A stretch of DNA of 34,653 nt, from the IMG/VR virus record IMGVR_UViG_3300012936_002111, positions 1 through 34,653 of that record, one strand, 5' to 3'. This DNA comes from a virus. Numbering within the stretch: the stretch's first letter is position 1; the number at the start of each line of letters is the position of its first letter. Under the pieces are notes generated by a model, which saw nothing but the letters and a program-made list of their open reading frames with translations, did not search any database and had not been told where the DNA came from. This document shows, in pieces, positions 9,085-29,588 of the stretch. The position numbers and the translations under genes are program-made.

Positions 9085-9363
9085 TTACTCACCTCCGGTG
9101 TTGCCGGTAGGTAGATTGTTAGTGATGCCAAGAATGCCTTCAATGTCTTCCCATTCTTCTTGGTGTTGAGCCCAATTGTCTTTGTGTGCAATTTTAATTG
9201 CTTTGTTAATAACAGATGGTTTGATTTGTAGTTCTTCTGCTACTGCTTTTACTGTGTCCTTAAGACCTTCATTTAGATCTTCTACTTCACGTAAAACATT
9301 GGAACCTTCTTTAATCAATCTCTCTAGTTTAGCCTTTTCTTCTGGCCCGTATATTTTTGACAT
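9085..9363 (-). CDS. dsbA: DsbA-like double-stranded DNA-binding protein
   Basis: The 92-residue protein resembles T4 DsbA, a small dsDNA-binding protein linked to late transcription. It has a charged helical N-terminus with EEKAKLERLIKEGSNVL, the ELQIKPSVINKAIKIAHKDN helix pair (residues 44-63) matching the DELG...FNRLLALYHKDN region of T4 DsbA, and an acidic C-terminal tail. The start has AGGAGA at good spacing. It is first in an early unit, downstream of a promoter embedded in a terminator. The last codons (Gly-Gly-Glu-stop) double as the ribosome-binding site of the next gene. DNA binding is inferred from the family. Confidence 0.75.
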   Translation of the reverse strand: MSKIYGPEEKAKLERLIKEGSNVLREVEDLNEGLKDTVKAVAEELQIKPSVINKAIKIAHKDNWAQHQEEWEDIEGILGITNNLPTGNTGGE

Positions 9364-9387: not shown

Positions 9388-9416
9388 ATTATATAGTCAT
9401 AAAAAAAGCCAGTCAA
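9388..9416 (-). promoter_or_regulatory. Early promoter (TTGACT-17-TATAAT) upstream of dsbA
   Basis: On the minus strand TTGACT (9411-9416) and TATAAT (9388-9393) are 17 bases apart. The -35 box lies inside the stem-loop of the terminator at 9405-9432. The leader would be about 18 bases and include AGGAGA. Confidence 0.75.
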
Positions 9417-9432
9417 GTTAATAACTGGCTTT
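9405..9432 (-). terminator. Rho-independent terminator after the head-protein cassette
   Basis: A perfect 9-bp stem (AAAGCCAGT, 9405-9413, with ACTGGCTTT, 9424-9432) closes a 10-base loop and on the minus strand runs into a tract of seven T (9401-9407). It ends the long transcript that includes the 417-residue protein and the Cys-rich ORF. Confidence 0.85.
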
Positions 9433-9459: not shown

Positions 9460-9552
9460 TTATTCTGCATTACAATCACAATGATTACAAGTCGGTTTAC
9501 AAGTACAGTCTGCTGCTTTTACATCTGCACCGCAGCAATCATCTGAACACAT
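9460..9552 (-). CDS. Cys-rich mini-protein, metallothionein-like
   Basis: A 30-codon frame lies between the 417-residue gene and the terminator. The product has eight Cys and one His in 30 residues: MCSDDCCGAD at the N-terminus and DCTCKPTCNHCDC near the C-terminus. The CxC, CxxxC and CxxC spacing is that of metal-thiolate proteins such as metallothioneins, so metal (zinc or copper) binding is likely. It starts 11 bases after the upstream stop; AAAGGAC lies about 15 bases before the ATG, longer than ideal. It is too short for automatic calling. A chance origin is unlikely given the Cys density, but expression is unproven. Confidence 0.62.
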   Translation of the reverse strand: MCSDDCCGADVKAADCTCKPTCNHCDCNAE

Positions 9553-9563
9553 TTTTGATTCAG

Positions 9564-10817
9564 TTAGTCCTTTTTTTTTGATTCTGTAAGTTCGTCCTCA
9601 GCCATAACATCGTACATTTCAAAACGTCCGCCGTTACGTTCGTAAATCATGCCTGCAAAAATTTCTGCTTTGTTTGACTCTTCTACCTTTGCTTTTGCAA
9701 CTCTTTGAGCCCATGACCAAAGTGTTTCGTCAACTGGATCAATTTGCTGTTGTCCGCCACTTTCATTTACAAGTTTTAGCATTTCAACAAATGACATGTT
9801 TGAAGGATCTTTAATAACTTCAATTGATTCGTTTACAGATGATTTTTTGTTTTTAGCTGACTCTTTCATTTCTCCCATACATGCTTCGATCATTTCTTTT
9901 AATTTCTTCTGATCGCAGTTAGGATACTTTTTGCAGATTTCAGACTTCTTCATACCTTTACCGCACATTAATAACACTTGTTTTTTGCTTGGTAATTTTT
10001 CTGCTTTAATAATTTCTTCAGCTTCTTCAATTGACTCTTTCTTTTTGCCGAAATATTTCTTTTGCTTATCTGACATTTCTTTTTTGCCTGATTTCTTTTT
10101 GCCACCTTCTTTTTCTTTAGCGGCTTTTTTCATAGGCTCTTTCTTGTCACCGTCTTTATCTAAATCTAAAAAGTCTGGCTTACCTGCTTCTGCAACCATA
10201 TCGTCAAACTTAGCTCTGAATGACTCTTCTTTCTTTTTAGATGCTTGGAACTCTTTAGATACTTTAACGTACTCATCGCCTTTTAAACCTTCAACATCTT
10301 TGTTGTGAGTTTTCTTAAGCCATGCTGCAAATTCTGTATCTTTGTCTTTTTCGGATAGCTCTTCGTTTACAGTTTTTTCTACTTCAGATTCTTTAACTTC
10401 TTTGGACTTAGAATCTTTTTCAACTTTTGCATCTTCTTTGGCTTTTTTCTTTTTAGGTTTAGCAGCACCGTGTTCTTCTAGTGTAACAATTTCCATATGT
10501 GCTGCTGGAACTTTCTTTTCTACACCGTGTTTGAATTGTACATCGTACCATTCAACATTACCATTGTCATCTGGAATAGCATGACTTTCATAAACTGGTT
10601 TACCTTTACCCCATAATGGGTGAACCACTAATGTTGCACAATCGTGATCCTTTGAATGACAAAGTTCTCTAACTTCCTCATCTGTGTAACTTTCAAATAC
10701 AATTGGTTTATAATCTACATTTGCTGCTCTCGCAATACTTTCTAAAGTACCATCAAATGTGTTTTCATTTTTTGCTTCCTCTTTCGGAAGTTTGTTTAAT
10801 AAATTTCTAAAGTCCAT
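9564..10817 (-). CDS. Lysine-rich head-associated protein (unknown function)
   Basis: The 417-residue protein has a folded N-terminal region (to about residue 115, including VVHPLWGKGKPVYESHA and VPAAHMEIVTLEEHG), a long Lys/Glu-rich low-complexity middle, an Asp-rich DLDKDGDKKEP segment at 218-228 resembling a calcium-binding loop, a Cys-containing helical patch (LLMCGKGMKKSEICKKYPNC, 282-301) and a helical C-terminus. This layout is typical of internal head proteins of marine T4-like phages, but I cannot name a T4 homologue. AAAGGA lies eight bases before the ATG. It is the last large gene of the head cassette. DNA binding or condensation in the capsid is an inference from charge. Confidence 0.75.
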   Translation of the reverse strand: MDFRNLLNKLPKEEAKNENTFDGTLESIARAANVDYKPIVFESYTDEEVRELCHSKDHDCATLVVHPLWGKGKPVYESHAIPDDNGNVEWYDVQFKHGVEKKVPAAHMEIVTLEEHGAAKPKKKKAKEDAKVEKDSKSKEVKESEVEKTVNEELSEKDKDTEFAAWLKKTHNKDVEGLKGDEYVKVSKEFQASKKKEESFRAKFDDMVAEAGKPDFLDLDKDGDKKEPMKKAAKEKEGGKKKSGKKEMSDKQKKYFGKKKESIEEAEEIIKAEKLPSKKQVLLMCGKGMKKSEICKKYPNCDQKKLKEMIEACMGEMKESAKNKKSSVNESIEVIKDPSNMSFVEMLKLVNESGGQQQIDPVDETLWSWAQRVAKAKVEESNKAEIFAGMIYERNGGRFEMYDVMAEDELTESKKKD

Positions 10818-10821
10818 GATG

Positions 10822-11112
10822 CTATCCTTTTAAGAGCTCCCACTCTGTTGTTAGTTTATCTCGAATACTTTCACAAGTCCCAGTGTCGTATTCACGTTCT
10901 CCTTTATTCATAGCATTGTCTGCTTGAATTTCGTACTCCATTCTTTCACGAACAGAGTCTAAGTAGTCGTTGGATAAAGTAATATAACTACTCATCCAAC
11001 CTTGTAATTCGTCACCTGGTTCAATCATTTTATATAGCGCAATGGCGTTCTTAGCAACGTTTGCTAGTTCCGCTTTAGCCATTGTGGCTTCATGATCAGG
11101 CTTCTTTTCCAT
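10822..11112 (-). CDS. Small helical conserved-type phage protein
   Basis: The 96-residue acidic protein appears all-helical (AKAELANVAKNAIALYKMIE, then ELQGWMSSYITLSNDYLDS and RERMEYEIQADNAM). No domain is recognised. There is no Shine-Dalgarno sequence; instead ATAAATA lies five bases before the ATG, so translation may start on a leaderless late mRNA. Its position between head-type genes suggests a virion or assembly role, which remains an inference. Confidence 0.7.
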   Translation of the reverse strand: MEKKPDHEATMAKAELANVAKNAIALYKMIEPGDELQGWMSSYITLSNDYLDSVRERMEYEIQADNAMNKGEREYDTGTCESIRDKLTTEWELLKG

Positions 11113-11117
11113 ACTAA

Positions 11118-11124
11118 TATTTAT
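11118..11124 (-). promoter_or_regulatory. Late promoter element ATAAATA, predicted leaderless start
   Basis: On the minus strand ATAAATA is followed by five bases (TTAGT) and then the ATG at 11112. It overlaps the stop codon of the upstream gene. T4 geometry places +1 on the ATG. Confidence 0.55.
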
Positions 11125-11411
11125 CTCTTGATGGCATTGCCGCCACCAAAAATGTTGTTCTTCATGTCTAGTGCGTTAACTGCTGTGCCGTCTTTTTTCT
11201 TTTTTTGTACGGTTTTAGGTGGTTTAGGTGCGCTTGTACCGCTTTTTCCTGGTGAACCTGTATAACTTTTATTGCCAATTGAACCTTTACCAATAGCAAG
11301 TTGTGGGCTTACAACAGTGGCAATATTGCCTGATGCTGTAGCACCTGCTGTAGCAGACTCCATTTTTTTCTTGTTTTGCTCAATGGCATTGAATAATTCG
11401 TTAAGTTTCAT
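11121..11411 (-). CDS. Small Gly/Ser/Lys-rich protein with head-type N-terminus
   Basis: The 96-residue product begins MKLNELFNAIEQNKKKMESA and continues with a flexible Gly/Ser/Ala-rich stretch and a KPPKTVQKKKKDG basic patch. The MKLNELF start resembles those of neighbouring proteins (MRINEIF, MLLKELF) and loosely the capsid-targeting peptides of T4 internal proteins. The rest looks disordered. No Shine-Dalgarno is present; a late promoter element lies five bases before the ATG. Packaging inside the head is a hypothesis. Confidence 0.65.
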   Translation of the reverse strand: MKLNELFNAIEQNKKKMESATAGATASGNIATVVSPQLAIGKGSIGNKSYTGSPGKSGTSAPKPPKTVQKKKKDGTAVNALDMKNNIFGGGNAIKR

Positions 11412-11415
11412 AATA

Positions 11416-12510
11416 CTATTTACCCTTTTTACGACCTGATTTCATGTTCGCACACCAGTGGTACATTCTACCTTTTTCACCACCTGCATTCTTTGCTTTC
11501 TTACGTAGACTTGTAACACTACCACTGCAACTTGCACCTGAACGTTTTACACGCCCTGGTCTGCTTTTGCCTTTCTTTTTACCATCAGCAAAGTTTTCAA
11601 CTACTGCATTTACAGTTAAAAACAATTTAGCAACATTAACATTAGTTTCGCCTAGCATTTGTAGTGCAGCGTATCTGTGATGTCCGTTAATAATTTTGTT
11701 ATTACAGTCTACTATAATAGGAGCATATGATCCTTTAGAAATTTTATCTACTTGCTTTTTAAAGTTTTCAAAAACAAATTCATCTTGAACCGGAACAATA
11801 TCTCCGATCTCAATTGTTTCTAAAGTATGTCTAATATGTTCTAAGTGTTTAGTTTTGATTTGGGGTAAATCTTCTCTTTCGTAATTCTCTTCTTTTGTTG
11901 CTTCAATTTTTGCAACTTTAAGTCCAAGATTGTTAAACAAGTTTTTTAAGCCTGAAACACTTTTTAGTGCCTGTAGCATTAGTTGTTGTTCGTCTTCTGC
12001 ACGTCTATCATAAAACTGTATAAACTTTTTAGCATTGTCTGGAGTAATATATACCATACCACCTGAACTTGCACCGCCTGTGTCTTTATAACTTAATGGA
12101 AAAGGATTATTATCTTTTCTCATTGCTATGTTATTAATAACATCAATTTTAGGACGTTGCTGTTTTACAACAAGTTCTTGTACATTATCTTCTTTAGTTT
12201 TTTTCTTTTTGTTTTTAGGAAATAATTTTTTAACATTCATATACTCACCGCCGACTGGAACGTCTGCGGTAGCATTTTGTTTTGTTACAATACCAACACC
12301 TGCTGCTTCTTCAGATGTTTTCTTTTTAGGCAATCCTTTATGCTTTGTTTTAGCAAAGTCTTTTACATCAGACACTTTCATATCTTTAGCAACTTCTCCA
12401 GCCTCGCCACCTTTTTTCATGTCGCCCTTTTGCATAGCTCTTACTATACCAAAGAACTGCTGTTGCTTTTTGCTTACTGCTTTTTCAGATACAAATTCGT
12501 ATGATCTCAT
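11416..12510 (-). CDS. ParB/sulfiredoxin-like domain protein, probable head-packaged protein
   Basis: The 364-residue protein has three parts. Residues 1-70 (SKKQQQFFGIVRAMQKGDM, then KDFAKTKHKGLPKK) match the DUF3008-type motif of phage proteins. A central region contains a ParB N-terminal/Srx-like fold: IGDIVPVQDEF, APIIVDCNNKIINGHHRYAA and LQMLGE, with the GHHRYAA box typical of the family, which binds or cleaves nucleotides or nucleic acid. The C-terminus is a basic Cys tail (GASCSGSVTSLRKKAKNAGG, then MYHWCANMKSGRKK). The N-terminus MRSYEFVSE resembles a capsid-targeting peptide. GGCGAG lies upstream. Whether it is a nuclease, an NTP-binding protein or only a DNA-binding protein cannot be told. 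Confidence 0.75.
   Translation of the reverse strand: MRSYEFVSEKAVSKKQQQFFGIVRAMQKGDMKKGGEAGEVAKDMKVSDVKDFAKTKHKGLPKKKTSEEAAGVGIVTKQNATADVPVGGEYMNVKKLFPKNKKKKTKEDNVQELVVKQQRPKIDVINNIAMRKDNNPFPLSYKDTGGASSGGMVYITPDNAKKFIQFYDRRAEDEQQLMLQALKSVSGLKNLFNNLGLKVAKIEATKEENYEREDLPQIKTKHLEHIRHTLETIEIGDIVPVQDEFVFENFKKQVDKISKGSYAPIIVDCNNKIINGHHRYAALQMLGETNVNVAKLFLTVNAVVENFADGKKKGKSRPGRVKRSGASCSGSVTSLRKKAKNAGGEKGRMYHWCANMKSGRKKGK
11417..11423 (-). promoter_or_regulatory. Late promoter element GTAAATA, predicted leaderless start
   Basis: GTAAATA on the minus strand is followed by GTATT and then the ATG at 11411, close to the extended T4 late consensus TATAAATACTATT. It overlaps the upstream Lys-stop codons. 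Confidence 0.55.
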
Positions 12511-12707
12511 ATCGGTTTCTCGCCTGTTAACTTAGGTAATGAAAACCATAACTTAAACCATTCAGGGGTGCCTGGTTCAATCTTATGCTTCTTCATTAGT
12601 TCTCCCTTTTCATTACCGCTAATACTAATATTGCTGCCTTCCCAAGGTGTGTAACCTTTGAATTCATTTATACCGGCAAGTCTAACAATATCGTCTAATT
12701 CAGACAT
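12507..12707 (-). CDS. Small conserved-type phage protein
   Basis: The 66-residue protein (MSELDDIVRLAGINEFKGY, then PGTPEWFKLWFSLPKLTGEK) is soluble and Trp/Phe-rich at its C-terminus. It is coupled on both sides, overlapping the gene before it by one base and the ParB-like gene after it by four. The PGTPEWFKLWFSLP segment is distinctive and should be easy to search for. No function is assigned. The SELDDIVRLAG N-terminus looks like a short amphipathic helix, as in other proteins of this cassette. Confidence 0.72.
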   Translation of the reverse strand: MSELDDIVRLAGINEFKGYTPWEGSNISISGNEKGELMKKHKIEPGTPEWFKLWFSLPKLTGEKPI

Positions 12708-13210
12708 TACATCTTAACGCAGTTGTCTACTGTTTTGCCACCCTTCTTCTTGGTGCCCATTCTTTTATATCCTTTCCAGCATACTTTGCCGTCAACGCCT
12801 TTTTGCTTTTCTTCGTTGATGCTTTCGTACTGTTGTTGGATATGCTCTGGCATTGCTATGAATCTTGGCTTAGCACATTCTGGACAAAATGATTCTTCTT
12901 CCTCGTGTCCTGGTTTATCCATGTCTGGATTATCAGGTGGATTTTTAACTTTGTCTAAAACGTCCTTTTGACCTTCTGCCCACTTCATTAATTTAAGAAT
13001 TTTTTCTTGTGGTAGTTTACAACGCTTTACTAGTTCTTCAATATTTCTTGCACCACCTGGCGCACCGTAGCGTGTTAGTTCGTCACCTACTCTTGAAAGC
13101 ACTAATGATAATGCATCGTCTTTAGTAGTGACAGCCTTGTCCATAAGGATTCTACCCATTCTGGATAGTTTGCCACCTTCTGGATGATCGTATGCTGTTT
13201 CGTTATTCAT
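12707..13210 (-). CDS. Head-cassette protein with CxxC motif and Cys/basic tail
   Basis: The 167-residue product begins MNNETAYDHPEGGKLSRMGR, continues with a helical region (DDALSLVLSRVGDELTRYG), then a FCPECAKPRF CxxC motif and finally a basic tail VCWKGYKRMGTKKKGGKTVD. The CxxC may bind metal, but a second pair is not evident. I chose the ATG at 13210 because AGGGGA lies at good spacing; the in-frame start at 13303 would overlap the upstream nucleotidyltransferase gene by 101 bases. The C-terminal tail is one of three unrelated Cys/basic tails found in consecutive genes here. Confidence 0.72.
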   Translation of the reverse strand: MNNETAYDHPEGGKLSRMGRILMDKAVTTKDDALSLVLSRVGDELTRYGAPGGARNIEELVKRCKLPQEKILKLMKWAEGQKDVLDKVKNPPDNPDMDKPGHEEEESFCPECAKPRFIAMPEHIQQQYESINEEKQKGVDGKVCWKGYKRMGTKKKGGKTVDNCVKM

Positions 13211-13823
13211 TGTTTTCCCCTGTGTTATCATTGATACCCATACCTTTTCTAACAGCAGCATATAAGTCGTCTGCATGTTCTCCTGCACCGGTATGTTGTG
13301 CAAATTTGTTTATGTCTCCATTAGCAGCATCGCCTCTTGCCATTGTTCCACTAATACCTTCGACACCATCGGCACCGTCTTCACGTTCTCCGCTGGATTT
13401 AAAATTCATTGTTTCAAACTTATAGTAACCATGTCCTTTACCGTCAACGCCGTTATAATCTTTTATAAGTTTTTGCATCATCTCTAATCTATCACTACCT
13501 GCAATAAACGTAATATGATTATATCCTCTTTCATGAAGTGAACTACAAATTTTAGGTAGTGTGTTTAGATCAGTATTCTCTACAACGTTGTTTGCAAACT
13601 CAGGATGTATTTTTCTAATGAAGTCTACTTTAGATGAGTAATCTAAGGGATTCTTTTTTGCATCTTGTGTTTGGCTGGTGTATATTTCCATTTCACCGCC
13701 AACCTTTTTCATTGCTTTAAAAACTTGCTTGTGTCCTAATGTAGGTGGATTGAAGCGACCAAAGCAAAAAGTAATGTGCTTATCACCATCGTCTTCTGTT
13801 AAGAATATTTCATTAATTCTCAT
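13203..13823 (-). CDS. HIGH-superfamily nucleotidyltransferase (cytidylyltransferase/NMNAT-like)
   Basis: The 206-residue protein carries the HxGH-type nucleotide-binding motif GRFNPPTLGH (22-31), a central FIAGSDRLEMM segment and an ISGTMAR motif corresponding to the ISxTxxR signature. These are the hallmarks of the cytidylyl/adenylyltransferase superfamily (NMNAT, PPAT, CTP-type). The substrate cannot be assigned; NAD-related and lipid-precursor roles are both possible. The first 14 residues (MRINEIFLTEDDGD) precede the first catalytic strand and resemble the N-termini of neighbouring head-type proteins, so the enzyme may be packaged. It overlaps the flanking genes by about ten bases on each side. 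Confidence 0.85.
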   Translation of the reverse strand: MRINEIFLTEDDGDKHITFCFGRFNPPTLGHKQVFKAMKKVGGEMEIYTSQTQDAKKNPLDYSSKVDFIRKIHPEFANNVVENTDLNTLPKICSSLHERGYNHITFIAGSDRLEMMQKLIKDYNGVDGKGHGYYKFETMNFKSSGEREDGADGVEGISGTMARGDAANGDINKFAQHTGAGEHADDLYAAVRKGMGINDNTGENNE

Positions 13824-14151
13824 AGTCGCCGTTCTCTAAATGCATTTCTTGTTCTTTAGCAATTTGTCTTGCTAATGAGATCATATTTTCTCTAGAAAAC
13901 TTTTCTTCTGGCTTATCGACATTAAATTTGTTGCAATACATATCACAACATTTTTCCACAGGCTTAATATATAGTTTGTAAGCGTTTGGATGTCCTCTGT
14001 ATTTTTCATGCTTTTTAATTGCTGGAAACAATACGTTAGACATTACTTCATTGTCGTTATCGATAAAGACTTTTAAATCGTCATGCCAATTGATATCATC
14101 TTCTTTATCATTGGGTGACCCGATAGGAGAGAAAAGTTCTTTTAGTAGCAT
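13813..14151 (-). CDS. Small conserved-type phage protein, head cassette
   Basis: The 112-residue protein starts MLLKELFSPIGSPNDKED and continues with NWHDDLKVFIDNDNEVMSN, LFPAIKKHEKYRGHP and three Cys near its middle. It is mainly helical with no recognised domain. The ATG at 14151 is preferred because TAGGAAA lies upstream and it begins just after the previous stop; a longer frame to 14208 would run into that gene. It ends within the nucleotidyltransferase gene start. The N-terminal LLKELF motif matches the cassette signature. Confidence 0.7.
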   Translation of the reverse strand: MLLKELFSPIGSPNDKEDDINWHDDLKVFIDNDNEVMSNVLFPAIKKHEKYRGHPNAYKLYIKPVEKCCDMYCNKFNVDKPEEKFSRENMISLARQIAKEQEMHLENGDYEN

Positions 14152-14152
14152 A

Positions 14153-14533
14153 TTACCATTTCCTACATGACCAATAACGTGCTTTAGTTCTTGGCCCTGG
14201 ATTATCACAGTTGTGTCTAGCTCTAAACGATTTTCTACGCTTAGGATTAGACTTCTTAATTTTCATGTTAGGATCACCGAAGTTAACCTTTTTAACATTC
14301 TTAGTTTTAGGGTCTCTTACATATACCTTAAACTTCTTAACATCACCTCTAGTTGGCTTGCCAAGACTTACTTTACGTCCTTGGTATTCTGCTTCGTCAA
14401 CGGGAACATCTTCGAACCACGGCAAATATCCATAGTATTCAAAGAATTCGTCACCCTCAAAGGTTTGTTCTTCGAGATCACTGATCTCTGTTACTGTTTC
14501 AATTGACTCTAGTTTTTTCAATAGATCGCGCAT
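14153..14533 (-). CDS. Head-cassette protein with Cys/basic C-terminal tail
   Basis: The 126-residue product has an acidic N-terminal half (MRDLLKKLESIETV, then DEFFEYYGYLPWFED) and a strongly basic C-terminal half: GKPTRGDVKKFKVYV, VNFGDPNMKIKKSNPKRRKS and RARHNCDN...YWSCRKW. This tail recurs on proteins of T4-like marine phages and probably binds nucleic acid or protein. AGAGGA precedes the ATG. It is the first gene of the head cassette and sits downstream of combined early and late promoter elements. Function unknown. Confidence 0.75.
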   Translation of the reverse strand: MRDLLKKLESIETVTEISDLEEQTFEGDEFFEYYGYLPWFEDVPVDEAEYQGRKVSLGKPTRGDVKKFKVYVRDPKTKNVKKVNFGDPNMKIKKSNPKRRKSFRARHNCDNPGPRTKARYWSCRKW

Positions 14534-14552
14534 AGTATCCTCTCTTTACAAG

Positions 14553-14581
14553 ATTATACTGTATTTAGCGTTATTAATCAA
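14553..14581 (-). promoter_or_regulatory. Overlapping early (TTGATT-17-TATAAT) and late (CTAAATA) promoters
   Basis: On the minus strand TTGATT (14576-14581) and TATAAT (14553-14558) are 17 bases apart, and CTAAATA (14562-14568) lies in the spacer. Both read into the head cassette with a leader of about 12-22 bases containing AGAGGA. Confidence 0.6.
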
Positions 14582-14583
14582 AC

Positions 14584-14940
14584 TTAGTAGTTATAAAGGA
14601 CCTGGACTATTTGCCCGTCTTGAACGTTATGACCTGCTCTAAGCCATATAAACTTGCCTGTAAACGTCTGTGTACCTATGTAATCTTCTATTCCTTGGCC
14701 GTAATAAGTACTATCACCACCCCATTCTGTTACATCTACCCAGTCATTTTCACCTGGCTCTTCTGCTAGTGTTCCTTGTACTTTAATAGTACCTTGAAAG
14801 GCATTGACATAGTACGCAACTGTATGCACACCGTCATTGTTTTTATGGTATCCTGCACCTTTCTTTTTATCACCATATGTATATGCTGAATCAGATACAA
14901 TAGAAGTTACAGGACCTAATAGTTGTCTACTCTCGCTCAT
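14584..14940 (-). CDS. Putative virion structural protein (beta-rich)
   Basis: The 118-residue protein is Gly/Thr/Tyr-rich with beta-strand character: TVAYYVNAFQGTIKVQGTLA, then DWVDVTEWGGDSTYYGQG and FTGKFIWLRAGHNVQDGQIV. This pattern is typical of small phage tail or capsid-decoration proteins, and IKVQGTLAEEPGENDW is a recurring phage structural motif. There is no Shine-Dalgarno; a late promoter element lies five bases upstream of the ATG, consistent with a late gene. The exact virion position is unknown. Confidence 0.68.
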   Translation of the reverse strand: MSESRQLLGPVTSIVSDSAYTYGDKKKGAGYHKNNDGVHTVAYYVNAFQGTIKVQGTLAEEPGENDWVDVTEWGGDSTYYGQGIEDYIGTQTFTGKFIWLRAGHNVQDGQIVQVLYNY

Positions 14941-14944
14941 ATTA

Positions 14945-15652
14945 CTATTTACCTGTTTTTACATATTTGCGTACAGTACCTACAAGGTCGTTACAGCGCA
15001 ATCTAAGCATTAGTAGCGTACTATCGTTATCAACGTATATCCAACGTCTAGTGTTGAATACATCACGTTTAAGAAGCCAGTTATAGGTAGCATCAGTAAA
15101 TGCAATAGCAGGGTTTCGTGAACGACACCAGTCTGCTAAACTTTCAAGTTCATTGAATGTTAGTGTTTTAGGACTTTTAAGATCTACCTGATAGTTATAC
15201 ATGTTGTGTGGTAATTCTTTTACAAATATTTCTTGATCGCTATAAAGCAAAGTACTTTCCATACCAGGAGCAGGCTCATGCCTATTTCTAGTTATATTCG
15301 GAAACTCATAACAAAGTGTTTCGTAAAGTATTTTGTTATTTGTATACACATCTAATATATCAGTTTCAATTCGAATAGTTACTTCATTCTTTGGTACTGA
15401 ATTTATAATACCTAAAAAAGATATCCATGTTTGTCCATGTCTTAATATCGTATGAGCGTTTTTTGTACGCCAGGTTGAAGTACTATGTAATGCGCCATCT
15501 GACTGTGGAGGAGGTCGTAAACCAGTCGCAAAGTCCAAGATCTCTTGATGACCGAGTGTACGTAAACTATATGCACCAGGCAATCTTAAACTAACTTTGT
15601 AGATATACTTGTTATAAAACTTCTTTTTAGTTTTCTTTGCAGTCTTAAGCAT
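14945..15652 (-). CDS. Unknown basic phage protein
   Basis: The 235-residue product begins with a very basic stretch (MLKTAKKTKKKFYNKYIYKV) and continues with mixed alpha/beta sequence including GHQEILDFATGLRPPP, SFLGIINSVP and ADWCRSRNPAIAFTD. I do not recognise it. It overlaps the 3' end of clpA by eight bases, so it is expressed with the chaperone genes, and it is followed by a virion-type gene. Its ribosome-binding site is weak (GGTAAAG), fitting coupling. A DNA- or RNA-binding role is possible from the N-terminus only. Confidence 0.72.
   Translation of the reverse strand: MLKTAKKTKKKFYNKYIYKVSLRLPGAYSLRTLGHQEILDFATGLRPPPQSDGALHSTSTWRTKNAHTILRHGQTWISFLGIINSVPKNEVTIRIETDILDVYTNNKILYETLCYEFPNITRNRHEPAPGMESTLLYSDQEIFVKELPHNMYNYQVDLKSPKTLTFNELESLADWCRSRNPAIAFTDATYNWLLKRDVFNTRRWIYVDNDSTLLMLRLRCNDLVGTVRKYVKTGK
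14946..14952 (-). promoter_or_regulatory. Late promoter element GTAAATA, predicted leaderless start
   Basis: GTAAATA on the minus strand, then GTAAT, then the ATG at 14940. It has the same five-base gap as three other genes in the window and overlaps the upstream stop codon. Confidence 0.55.
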
Positions 15653-24299: not shown

Positions 24300-24409
24300 T
24301 CTTCTTGGAATCTATCGCGGAGTTGGTCTAAAAGATCAATGAGCTCATCTATGAGATTTTGATCCTCATCTCGAGCTGTATCGACTTCTACTTCTATTTT
24401 AATTTTCAT
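24296..24409 (-). CDS. 37-residue acidic mini-protein
   Basis: A 37-codon frame follows the ferredoxin with a one-base stop/start overlap (TAATG). It encodes [19 protein letters not shown], then DELIDLLDQLRDRFQEE: a short beta strand followed by a Leu-rich amphipathic helix. The coupling and clean codon pattern support expression. No function is assigned; the helix suggests a dimer or a binding peptide. Its stop lies inside the terminator stem. Confidence 0.6.
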   Translation of the reverse strand: MKIKIEVEVDTARDEDQNLIDELIDLLDQLRDRFQEE

Positions 24410-24759
24410 TAGTCTATTTGTACTGCGGGAATTGCTTTGAATAATTTTGTTTTATCTTCTTTGTAGTTTTCTTTTGCAAAGTCTACATAGTTTTCCATAG
24501 GCGCTTGTTCTTCTGTAATATTAGGCCAGTTGCCTTCGTTGGAAAAGTATTGGTTGTGTTTAAACCATTTATTATCTTCATCATCAGTTTGCCATATTGC
24601 ATCTTCTGGACATTCAGGAACACACACACCACAATCAATACACTCATCAGGATTGATCACTAACATGTTTTCACCTTCGTAAAAACAGTCAACAGGGCAA
24701 ACACTTACGCAAGTTGTGTGTTTACAATTTATACATTTGTCGTCTACTACGTGTGTCAC
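24409..24759 (-). CDS. fdxA: 7Fe ([3Fe-4S][4Fe-4S]) ferredoxin, FdxA/FdI type
   Basis: The 116-residue protein matches bacterial 7Fe ferredoxins. [20 protein letters not shown] gives Cys9, 12, 17, 21 and 25, and [19 protein letters not shown] gives Cys40, 43, 46 and 50: the nine-Cys arrangement of Azotobacter ferredoxin I. The characteristic WPNITEE segment in the C-terminal extension is also present. I place the start at GTG 24759 (MTHVVDDKC), as in homologues, overlapping the oxygenase stop as GTGA; an in-frame TTG at 24783 would add eight residues not seen in the family. It would carry low-potential electrons in the cytoplasm. The partner is unknown. Confidence 0.92.
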
Positions 24760-25334
24760 GGTACCATTTGTTCGGGTAAGCAATTAAACGCCATTGTGAT
24801 CCTATCATTATCACCAGTATGTGGCAAAGTCAAGTGCTGTACGTAACTTGGAAAAATTACAACCTGTCCTGGCTTTGGTTCAATAGTAAAACTATCGTAC
24901 ATATAATCGTTAGGTATCTCAATAGCTGAAAGACTTCTAGCATAACACGGATCCATAAACTTTGTATGCGCACCTTCTGTTAAGTAATAGATGCCGCTAT
25001 AGTAAGCCATAGGATGCCTATGTTGACGCTGGTCGCCACCTGATCCTTTAAGGGCCATATTAGCCCATAACCTTGTTAACTTTAAATGTCCGAAGGCTGG
25101 ATCGTAACCTTCTTCCTTTTGTATATTTAACAAACAATCTTCTAACTCATCTTTTAAAAACTTCCAATGATCTAGTTTATGTAATACTTGATTGTCTGTT
25201 TGATTAATTGTTGGATAATGAGGATTAATATTATTAGATTCTTCTGGAATCAGTTCAAGCACCTTTTCTACATGATCTGAAAGATCAAACTCATAGAAAG
25301 GAATAGGAAACATTTGATGTTTTGTAAATGCCAT
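24756..25334 (-). CDS. 2OG-Fe(II) oxygenase family protein
   Basis: The 192-residue protein fits phage 2-oxoglutarate/Fe(II) oxygenases of the TIGR02466 type. It has [18 protein letters not shown] (His105/His107 as proximal iron ligands), [18 protein letters not shown] (the distal His167) and [11 protein letters not shown] (Arg178 as 2-oxoglutarate binder). Such enzymes hydroxylate proteins, nucleic acids or small molecules; the substrate is not evident. It is followed, with GTGA overlap, by a ferredoxin, although 2OG oxygenases do not need one. The start overlaps the membrane-protein gene. Confidence 0.85.
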
Positions 25335-27593: not shown

Positions 27594-27982
27594 GCACCAA
27601 AGTCACCGGGATCAAAAGACGCTGTGTCGCCATCGCCGTAGTGTTGTCCCCAATAGGCTAGTTCTGGTTGGAAGTCGTCTTCGCCTACAGCGAGGATTGC
27701 AGACTTCTCGACTTTCTGTATCTCAATTTCGCCGAGATCAGGATCGTCAACTTTTACTTTTCTAGTCCAACGACCGTGTTCGATTAAGATCCAATCACCT
27801 TCGTTATACTCGTCATTGTTCTCAGAACCTTTAGCATAAACTTTTGCCCAACGACTTTTAACACCATGTGCTTTTGCATCATCACTTCGCATGATAATTC
27901 CACCTTTGGTTACAGTTTCGCCAAAGTGCATTTCGTATACTAGTACATCGTCATGTATTGGTTTAAGTTTACCTTTGATCAT
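27587..27982 (-). CDS. 31: GroES-like co-chaperonin (gp31-type)
   Basis: The 131-residue protein has GroES-fold features: LKPIHDDVLVYEM at the first strand, a mobile-loop region GETVTKGGIIMRSDD matching the loop that docks GroEL, KVYAKGS, EYNEGDWILIEHGRW and a final EKSAILAV strand. T4 gp31 replaces GroES for folding the large capsid protein gp23; this is the analogous protein of marine T4-like phages. It has an acidic, flexible C-terminal tail. GGAGG precedes the ATG, which overlaps the halogenase by 14 bases. Confidence 0.82.
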   Translation of the reverse strand: MIKGKLKPIHDDVLVYEMHFGETVTKGGIIMRSDDAKAHGVKSRWAKVYAKGSENNDEYNEGDWILIEHGRWTRKVKVDDPDLGEIEIQKVEKSAILAVGEDDFQPELAYWGQHYGDGDTASFDPGDFGAQ

Positions 27983-29588
27983 CTTTGCCTCCGTAAATAT
28001 AATTCTTTAAAAATTCATAATGACTAGGAAGTTTAGAAACATAGTCAATTACAAAATCTCTGTAATCTTCATAACTGCGTTTCTGAAAATCTAGTTCTTC
28101 TAACTTAGTTACCCCTCCCCAGTATGGTCCTTCGTGTAAAACGATTTCTTTAGTTGATTTTGGTTTTACACCCATACCAGCCGCTAAGAATAAAGAAGGT
28201 GGAAAGTCAGCCGCTCCACTGTATGTGCTACCTAATGTTACACCGCCAATTAAAGATTGATATTGTGTGTTTCTTAAATTGTAATTTTCACCTACTAGTT
28301 GCGGACAGTATTCATGATATTCAGTTGCCCATTTCCAATACGGTGTGTCGTCACGCATTGAAAGAGCATAGTGAGTTGAAATAAAATCTCTAAATTTTAA
28401 AACTTCTGATTCAACTGCGTAATTAAATCCTTCTTTTTCTGTTCTTGTTACCCAACCTTCTCTACGGTTTAATACTTCGACTAACTTGACTAAATTTTCA
28501 TGTGTTGTTAGTAGCCCTGTAGATTCTAGTGGTTCTACAAAACCATAACTTAATCCAATCCCAACAACGTTGCGTACCCAACCTCTACGCCTTCTTCCGT
28601 GCTTGATATTAATATGAAACATTTCTGCATTTTCTGCACGTTCTTTAGAACCTGTTGTTGCTAGATGTTTTCTAAATTCTTCTTTTGCTTCTTCAGCAGT
28701 TGTAAACTTTGACGAATATACATATCCTGTTCCTATACGGTTCCACAAAGGAATATGCCATACCCATCCATTGTTAAGTGCATGACAGTCTGTGTAGTTG
28801 TGCATTTCTTTTTCTGCATCTTCGTATGGAACTCTACATGCCCATGCACAATCATTTGCTAGATAATCATCAAATGATAAAAACTCTTGCTTCATTGCTT
28901 TTTCTAAAAGCATTGATTGAAAGCCTGTACAATCAACATACAGGTCTGCTGTTATTGTTTCTCCGTTATCTAATAAAAGACCGCTTACTTGATCGTCTTC
29001 CATATCAACGTGTACTACGTCATGATTCAATAAAGTTACACCTTTGGGTATAGCAATATTGTTTTTAAGATATTGTCCTAGTTTTGCAGCATCAACATGG
29101 TATGCGGTATCCCATTTAAAACTGTAGTGTCTTAAATCTTCGTTTGCATTTGTTGTGCCTTTGCACATGTCTGAAAGATATGTGTTAGCGGTAGCGTAAA
29201 ATTTTGCAAAGGTATCAGGAGTAAACTCTTCTGGATATACAGTTGCTAATTCTGACCAAGCATCAATACCACCTGGCTTGTCAGTCATATCAAACCCTAA
29301 ACTAAAAGGATATTGAAAACTGGTACCGTCATTTTCTCTGAAGTTTGTAAACCTAATTGAATTTTTGTATGTAGCATTACACTCTGCCATCCAGTCTTTA
29401 TCTTCAAGACCAAGTAGATCTAAAAATTTTGTAATGTGACCGAGTGTGCTTTCACCTACTCCAACAGTTTTAATGTTAGGGGATTCAATTATGGTTATGT
29501 CGATATGTGGACACAGTTTAGACAGTGCGGCTGCTGACATCCACCCTGAACTTCCACCGCCGACAATCACCAAGGATTTTACTCTCAT
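27969..29588 (-). CDS. Flavin-dependent (tryptophan-type) halogenase
   Basis: The 539-residue enzyme carries the FAD-binding GGGSSGWM (10-17), a conserved Lys (Lys75 in ECNATYKNSIRFTNF) corresponding to Lys79 of PrnA, which relays hypohalous acid, the WVWHIP motif (275-280, WxWxIP), and GLSYGFVEPLESTGL (345-359), which carries the Glu-Ser of the active site. All hallmark residues of halogenases are intact, so chlorination or bromination of an aromatic substrate is expected. A flavin reductase is needed and not seen. AGGACA lies upstream. Such genes occur in marine T4-like phages; the substrate is unknown. Confidence 0.93.
   Translation of the reverse strand: MRVKSLVIVGGGSSGWMSAAALSKLCPHIDITIIESPNIKTVGVGESTLGHITKFLDLLGLEDKDWMAECNATYKNSIRFTNFRENDGTSFQYPFSLGFDMTDKPGGIDAWSELATVYPEEFTPDTFAKFYATANTYLSDMCKGTTNANEDLRHYSFKWDTAYHVDAAKLGQYLKNNIAIPKGVTLLNHDVVHVDMEDDQVSGLLLDNGETITADLYVDCTGFQSMLLEKAMKQEFLSFDDYLANDCAWACRVPYEDAEKEMHNYTDCHALNNGWVWHIPLWNRIGTGYVYSSKFTTAEEAKEEFRKHLATTGSKERAENAEMFHINIKHGRRRRGWVRNVVGIGLSYGFVEPLESTGLLTTHENLVKLVEVLNRREGWVTRTEKEGFNYAVESEVLKFRDFISTHYALSMRDDTPYWKWATEYHEYCPQLVGENYNLRNTQYQSLIGGVTLGSTYSGAADFPPSLFLAAGMGVKPKSTKEIVLHEGPYWGGVTKLEELDFQKRSYEDYRDFVIDYVSKLPSHYEFLKNYIYGGKDDQR

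Follow-up and report, generated by a model that had tools for sequence, protein, structure and literature searches.

Results

A cysteine-rich frame lies in the -1 frame behind a lysine-rich gene

We analysed a 34,653-base virus record from IMG/VR (hereafter the window). On its minus strand, the gene at 9564..10817 encodes a 417-aa protein that is rich in Lys and Glu, is a mosaic built from short modules and has a conserved C-terminal domain. The zero-frame product ends in ...RFEMYDVMAEDELTESKKKD*; we refer to this gene as the parent. Downstream on the same strand, we found the ATG-initiated ORF reported in the preliminary description (9460..9552), whose 30 aa (MCSDDCCGADVKAADCTCKPTCNHCDCNAE) include eight Cys and one His and whose ATG is located 11 bases 3´ of the TAA that ends the parent ORF. 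The frame is followed by a terminator-like hairpin and T-run (9401..9432, minus strand; AAAGCCAGT...ACTGGCTTTTTTT), which is kept in most relatives. Past the terminator, the ORF at 9085-9363 gave a match to Phage_DsbA, a Pfam family of transcriptional regulators (E=1.6e-8). Elsewhere in the window, the ORFs at 27969-29588 and 24409-24783 appeared by eye to be of the tryptophan-halogenase type and ferredoxin-like, respectively.

Relative to the parent, the 30-aa peptide is in the -1 frame. Although the preliminary description had recognized the ORF, it overlooked both this frame relation and a run of nine A's located at 9571-9579. Together with the following G, the run (A9-G; 9570..9579, minus strand) gives the zero frame TCA AAA AAA AAG GAC TAA, with the heptamer A_AAA_AAG in phase at 9570-9576. 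Upon addition of one A, or a -1 slip on A_AAA_AAG, reading goes on as ...KKK-GLTESK-MCSDDCCG...HCDCNAE, and the -1 frame extension beyond the slip (GLTESKMCSDDCCGADVKAADCTCKPTCNHCDCNAE*) spans 9460..9570 (minus strand).

Apart from the A9 at 9571-9579, neither strand of the window has an A-run of eight or more. In a 98-kb contig of a relative with the same arrangement (L011, from G001), the A9 at this site is likewise the only A9, and a 67.9 kb contig with a fused arrangement (G002, see below) has no A-runs of eight or more. Since a fifth-order Markov model predicts ~0.9 runs of nine or more A's in the window, the rarity of A9 proves nothing alone; what counts is its position.

The cysteine-rich tail is fused to the parent protein in some relatives and split from it in others

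The parent C-terminal domain is encoded in 442 IMG/VR stretches, and our comparison covered 102 distinct haplotypes of the region at the ...RFEMYDV... end. Nine of these, derived from 23 contigs including the window, have A9-G followed by a Cys-rich tail in the -1 frame (split haplotypes). All nine read TCA AAA AAA AAG G[AC]C T[AG]A: the slippery sequence is correctly phased and lies shortly before the zero-frame stop, and the -1 frame is open into the Cys tail. In another 32 of the 102 haplotypes, the same protein continues in frame into a Cys-rich tail. Most of the remaining haplotypes, which are of a different, shorter-ended type, are without the Cys tail.

We distinguished three types of tail. 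L195 has the window's type as an in-frame fusion (...VVEKGLTEGKTWMKDGVEMCPEACCGKPVTECSCGSDCNHCDCNK), and the Met corresponding to the window's apparent start is internal there ('GVEMCPEACCG'). A second type occurs as a fusion in L002, L003 and L019, whereas L095 has it in the -1 frame behind A9-G, indicating that the slip site is retained while the tail module behind it changes. Among the split relatives, the lengths of spacer and domain differ by multiples of three, such that the -1 frame is kept; in L008 and L094, for example, the spacer between the slip site and the domain is 6 nt longer. The tree built for the C-terminal domain fits a single emergence of the split state (74% of bootstraps). 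Because the split state probably arose once, the split haplotypes should not be taken as independent gains.

In many marine relatives (L014-L029, L034 and others), a different, repeat-like Cys tail (CNCGPDCACKGNCGDDCNCGPDC) is fused to the parent protein. One copy of this tail, which is not of the window's type, gave a weak match to Pfam Metallothio_5 (E=0.43).

The start codon of the 30-codon frame is most likely an internal Met codon

The ORF had been described as a free-standing, metallothionein-like gene. A short Cys-rich ORF by itself is weak evidence for such a gene, because related loci hold many equally Cys-rich ORFs by chance. A separate small gene would start at the ATG at 9552, alone or by re-initiation, and would give a free metallothionein-like protein. 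The ATG is indeed present in the window as well as in L001, L004, L006, L009 and L012, and the 11-base distance between stop and ATG permits re-initiation. However, three of the nine split haplotypes (L008, L094 and L095) lack an ATG, GTG or TTG in the interval from the stop to the first Cys, and in L095 this interval is devoid of any start-like codon. In addition, the ATG of the window showed no detectable Shine-Dalgarno pairing and tied for the weakest of the 32 starts tested; a Shine-Dalgarno sequence is present for the parent gene and most of its neighbours. The peptide is also always in the -1 frame relative to the parent, and the equivalent Met of the fused L195 protein is internal. Given the start-codon, Shine-Dalgarno and fused-homologue evidence, we rejected an independent small gene as very unlikely and consider the ATG most likely to be an internal Met codon.

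Purifying selection acts on the -1 frame

For the split relatives with the window's domain type, all eight Cys and the His are conserved, which is beyond chance. Differences between -1-frame tails and their in-frame homologues fall mainly at third codon positions, with synonymous changes above expectation. Comparison of L001 (-1 frame) with L195 (zero frame) gave 10 synonymous and 8 nonsynonymous codons (6/1/15 differences at the three codon positions, P = 0.0006), and comparison of L095 (-1 frame) with L002 (zero frame) gave the same codon counts (7/2/15, P = 0.0009). Among the split haplotypes themselves, 9 of 18 were synonymous (P = 0.004). Collectively, these comparisons indicate that the -1 frame is under purifying selection and bear out the original view that the Cys-rich coding sequence is genuine. 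The A9-G run is invariant among the split haplotypes, for which the codon is unchanged at 52 of 62 conserved Lys columns; as these haplotypes diverge little, the invariance is not independently significant.

Selection on the -1 frame also argues against a decayed tail or a sequencing error, in which a frameshift mutation or a homopolymer error would have split the gene and the tail would be either not made or truly in frame. Homopolymers are prone to error, and the close relatives L002 and L003 lack the A9 segment and have the tail fused in frame. Nevertheless, the same A9 was observed in 23 contigs from many samples and, as read from the sequences, L095 differs from L002 by a 23-nt insert and not by a 1-nt slip, making decay or error very unlikely. 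Although poly-A is also slippery for DNA polymerase (PMC3711429), the least probable explanation is phase variation, in which the A9 length would change at replication and genomes would encode either the fused or the short protein with no slippage during expression, since the tract is exactly A9 in 23 of 23 contigs with no A8 or A10 alleles among them.

Slippage at A9-G probably gives rise to two forms of the parent protein

The best explanation is that the Cys-rich peptide forms the C-terminal domain of the parent protein and that translation enters its -1 frame by slippage at A9-G, a reading to which we assign a probability of roughly 0.83. Most ribosomes would halt at the TAA, leading to the 417-aa form. 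For a fraction of the products, slippage would occur at A9-G, either because RNA polymerase adds one A (A10) or because the ribosome shifts -1 on A_AAA_AAG, and two length variants with a common N-terminus would therefore be made. Either route would lead to an identical product, ...TESKKK-GLTESKMCSDDCCG...CNHCDCNAE, in which the zero-frame Lys-Lys-Lys is followed by 36 residues. The long variant would bear a probable Zn/Cu-binding Cys8His mini-domain.

With respect to the route, we see an approximately even chance of transcriptional slippage and a somewhat smaller one of ribosomal -1 frameshifting, with a minor share for both together or another mechanism. Nine A's are a permissive length for RNA polymerase slippage (review PMC5009743), and an A9 cassette led to 40% frameshifting in E. 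coli (PMC3711429). A_AAA_AAG is among the most efficient frameshift motifs in E. coli given stimulators, while motifs without stimulators reached at most ~10x background (PMC4066793). At the A9-G site, we detected no conserved downstream hairpin (folding z-scores of +1.3 to -2.0) and, by eye, no upstream Shine-Dalgarno-like stimulator, such that a ribosomal shift alone could be weak. Some known ribosomal frameshift sites do without stimulators.

The tail contains a Cys8His mini-domain found in many environmental phage proteins

From the first to the last Cys, the tail corresponds to a mini-domain with the pattern Cx3CCGx5-7CxCx3CxHCDC (9472..9549, minus strand), which we characterized by an alignment of 47 sequences and a census of 113 ORFs. 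A first search was carried out with the pattern C[ST]CxxxCxHCDC, which fixes the last five Cys and HCDC, and a second search, derived from the domain alignment, comprised 286 stretches. The eight Cys and the His, in CC/CxC/CxxC spacing, are kept in 47 of 47 aligned copies; the invariance of HCDC is partly by construction, because HCDC belonged to the first pattern, but the CCG block did not. Environmental phage contigs yielded 113 distinct ORFs or ORF fragments with the mini-domain in frame, a handful of split-tail frames included; its position in these ORFs was N-terminal, internal or C-terminal. Carriers besides the window include L303, L321, L333, L334, L381 and L382.

With the mini-domain masked, the carriers were compared with the cassette of genes in the window. 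Matches were to 11121-11411 (17 ORFs), 10822-11112 (10), 12707-13303 (7), the parent (5), 14153-14533 (3) and the cytidylyltransferase/NMNAT-like gene at 13203-13823 (1). Six cassette genes thus have relatives among the carriers, while 70 carriers have no match in the cassette. Copies of the mini-domain in unrelated protein contexts share up to 90-92% DNA identity, indicating recent domain shuffling.

The mini-domain had no match in Pfam, NCBIfam, PHROGs or PDB sequences, and we therefore rejected membership of a known metallothionein, zinc-finger or other family. No isolate phage in the searched collection gave a match at a meaningful E-value, and our literature search found nothing on phage-encoded metallothioneins of this kind; the mini-domain is hitherto undescribed. 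Bacterial and archaeal genomes gave 24 hits to the mini-domain pattern, all of which resembled chance frames, and no relative of the parent C-terminal domain was found among bacterial or archaeal genome contigs. A host origin was rejected on these grounds. Structure prediction was not informative for the mini-domain (AF2 model with pLDDT 63 and pTM 0.26) and too poor for a fold search for the C-terminus of L195 (pLDDT 55.5).

As had been proposed, the composition fits metal binding. The tail likely serves as a thiolate metal site, which only a minority of the copies of a probably virion-associated protein would have.

The parent protein may be located in the phage head

While the window is a partial genome, the 98-kb contig of the split relative L011 encodes a gp21-type prohead protease (PF03420 (S77), E=4.6e-25), adjoined by ORFs whose products look, by eye, like a portal, a scaffold and a major capsid protein. 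This relative is a T4-like phage. The parent is similar to proteins of T4-like cyanophages (ORFs 90-93 of S-SCSM1), with which it shares the module KPDFLDxDKDGDKKEPMKKA and a 60-aa domain of the KDHDCATVVxHPxxGKGKPVYESHAI type; unlike in the window, no Cys8His mini-domain was found in the isolate phage records. ORF92 of S-SCSM1, which has the first of these modules, is annotated as a virion protein and lies beside the NMNAT virion protein. Mass spectrometry of the S-SCSM1 virion identified 45 proteins, NMNAT among them (PMC9602691). Given the module shared with ORF92 and these virion data, a head location of the window's protein is plausible by analogy. In the Synechococcus phage S-SCSM1 sequence at L286:1475-3249, the modules KPDFLDxDKDGDKKEPMKKA and VSKAQQRFMGMVHAVKKGDM of the parent family recur in virion-annotated proteins. 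This mosaic pattern suggests that domains are shuffled between the virion cassettes of T4-like phages from marine habitats. We also considered S-SCSM1 ORF92/93 as a second frameshift; no A9-G split was present at the ORF boundary examined, which is an ordinary one.

Across 10822-15652 of the window, several neighbouring cassette proteins begin alike (MKLNELF, MRINEIF, MRSYEFVSE, MRDLLKKL, MLLKELF). Judged from sequence, these N-terminal motifs are possibly capsid-targeting sequences with LxE-like protease sites. In the parent family, L-x-E is found just ahead of the tail in nearly all members; in the window, the candidate cleavage site is the L-T-E encoded in the -1 frame linker (9559..9567, minus strand), where L and E are nearly invariant. 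T4-type prohead proteases cut after LxE-type motifs, and release of the tail in the prohead is therefore conceivable. Related work is available (PMC5694885). By analogy, the tail might be released by LxE cleavage, which we regard as a lead only.

Taking the mini-domain and the virion context together, we tentatively propose, at less than even odds, a phage-specific Cys8His metal-binding cassette of ~26 residues that would be shuffled between the virion-associated proteins of T4-like phages from the sea. For one clade, the slippage site would set the dose per particle, so that in each capsid a defined minority of the copies would be loaded with metal and would be delivered or processed together with the head.

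Implications and comparison with known systems

The slippage reading turns an apparent orphan peptide into a testable recoding site in a gene of a T4-like phage, with the C-terminal domain of one gene fused in some relatives and placed behind a slippery run in others. A conserved Cys-rich mini-domain of many environmental phage proteins is missing from standard family libraries and from the isolates searched. We agree with the earlier expectation that gene callers would overlook the Cys-rich sequence: callers that truncate at the stop systematically lose the split form.

The mini-domain resembles metallothioneins (e.g. Pfam Metallothio_5) in having ~30% Cys, CC/CxC/CxxC spacing and potential Cys/His ligands. 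It differs from them in that it is not a separate protein, has conserved non-Cys residues (G, V, H and D), which argue for a defined fold, and has no significant family match. The comparison with metallothioneins includes the bacterial SmtA type. The tail is likely metallothionein-like in its chemistry without being a member of the family.

With respect to expression, the window gene can be compared to tssM1 of Citrobacter rodentium, for which slippage at A11 leads to ~25% extended protein with a restored C-terminal domain, and both forms are needed (PMC4256274). In both genes, a stop is encountered soon past the poly-A run, and two variants, one with the C-terminal domain restored, are or would be made with no obvious stimulators. 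However, tssM1 is a bacterial secretion gene with an A11 run, a large domain and demonstrated slippage, whereas the window has an A9 in the last codons of a phage gene, and the predicted slippage would add a Cys-rich tail of ~36 residues. The arrangement is also reminiscent of lambda gpG/gpGT and similar tail chaperones, where a tailed dsDNA phage makes a minor, C-terminally extended form by a -1 shift near the end of the gene. Unlike for gpG/gpGT, the window site is in another gene and consists of an A9-G run, and the extension would be a Cys-rich mini-domain.
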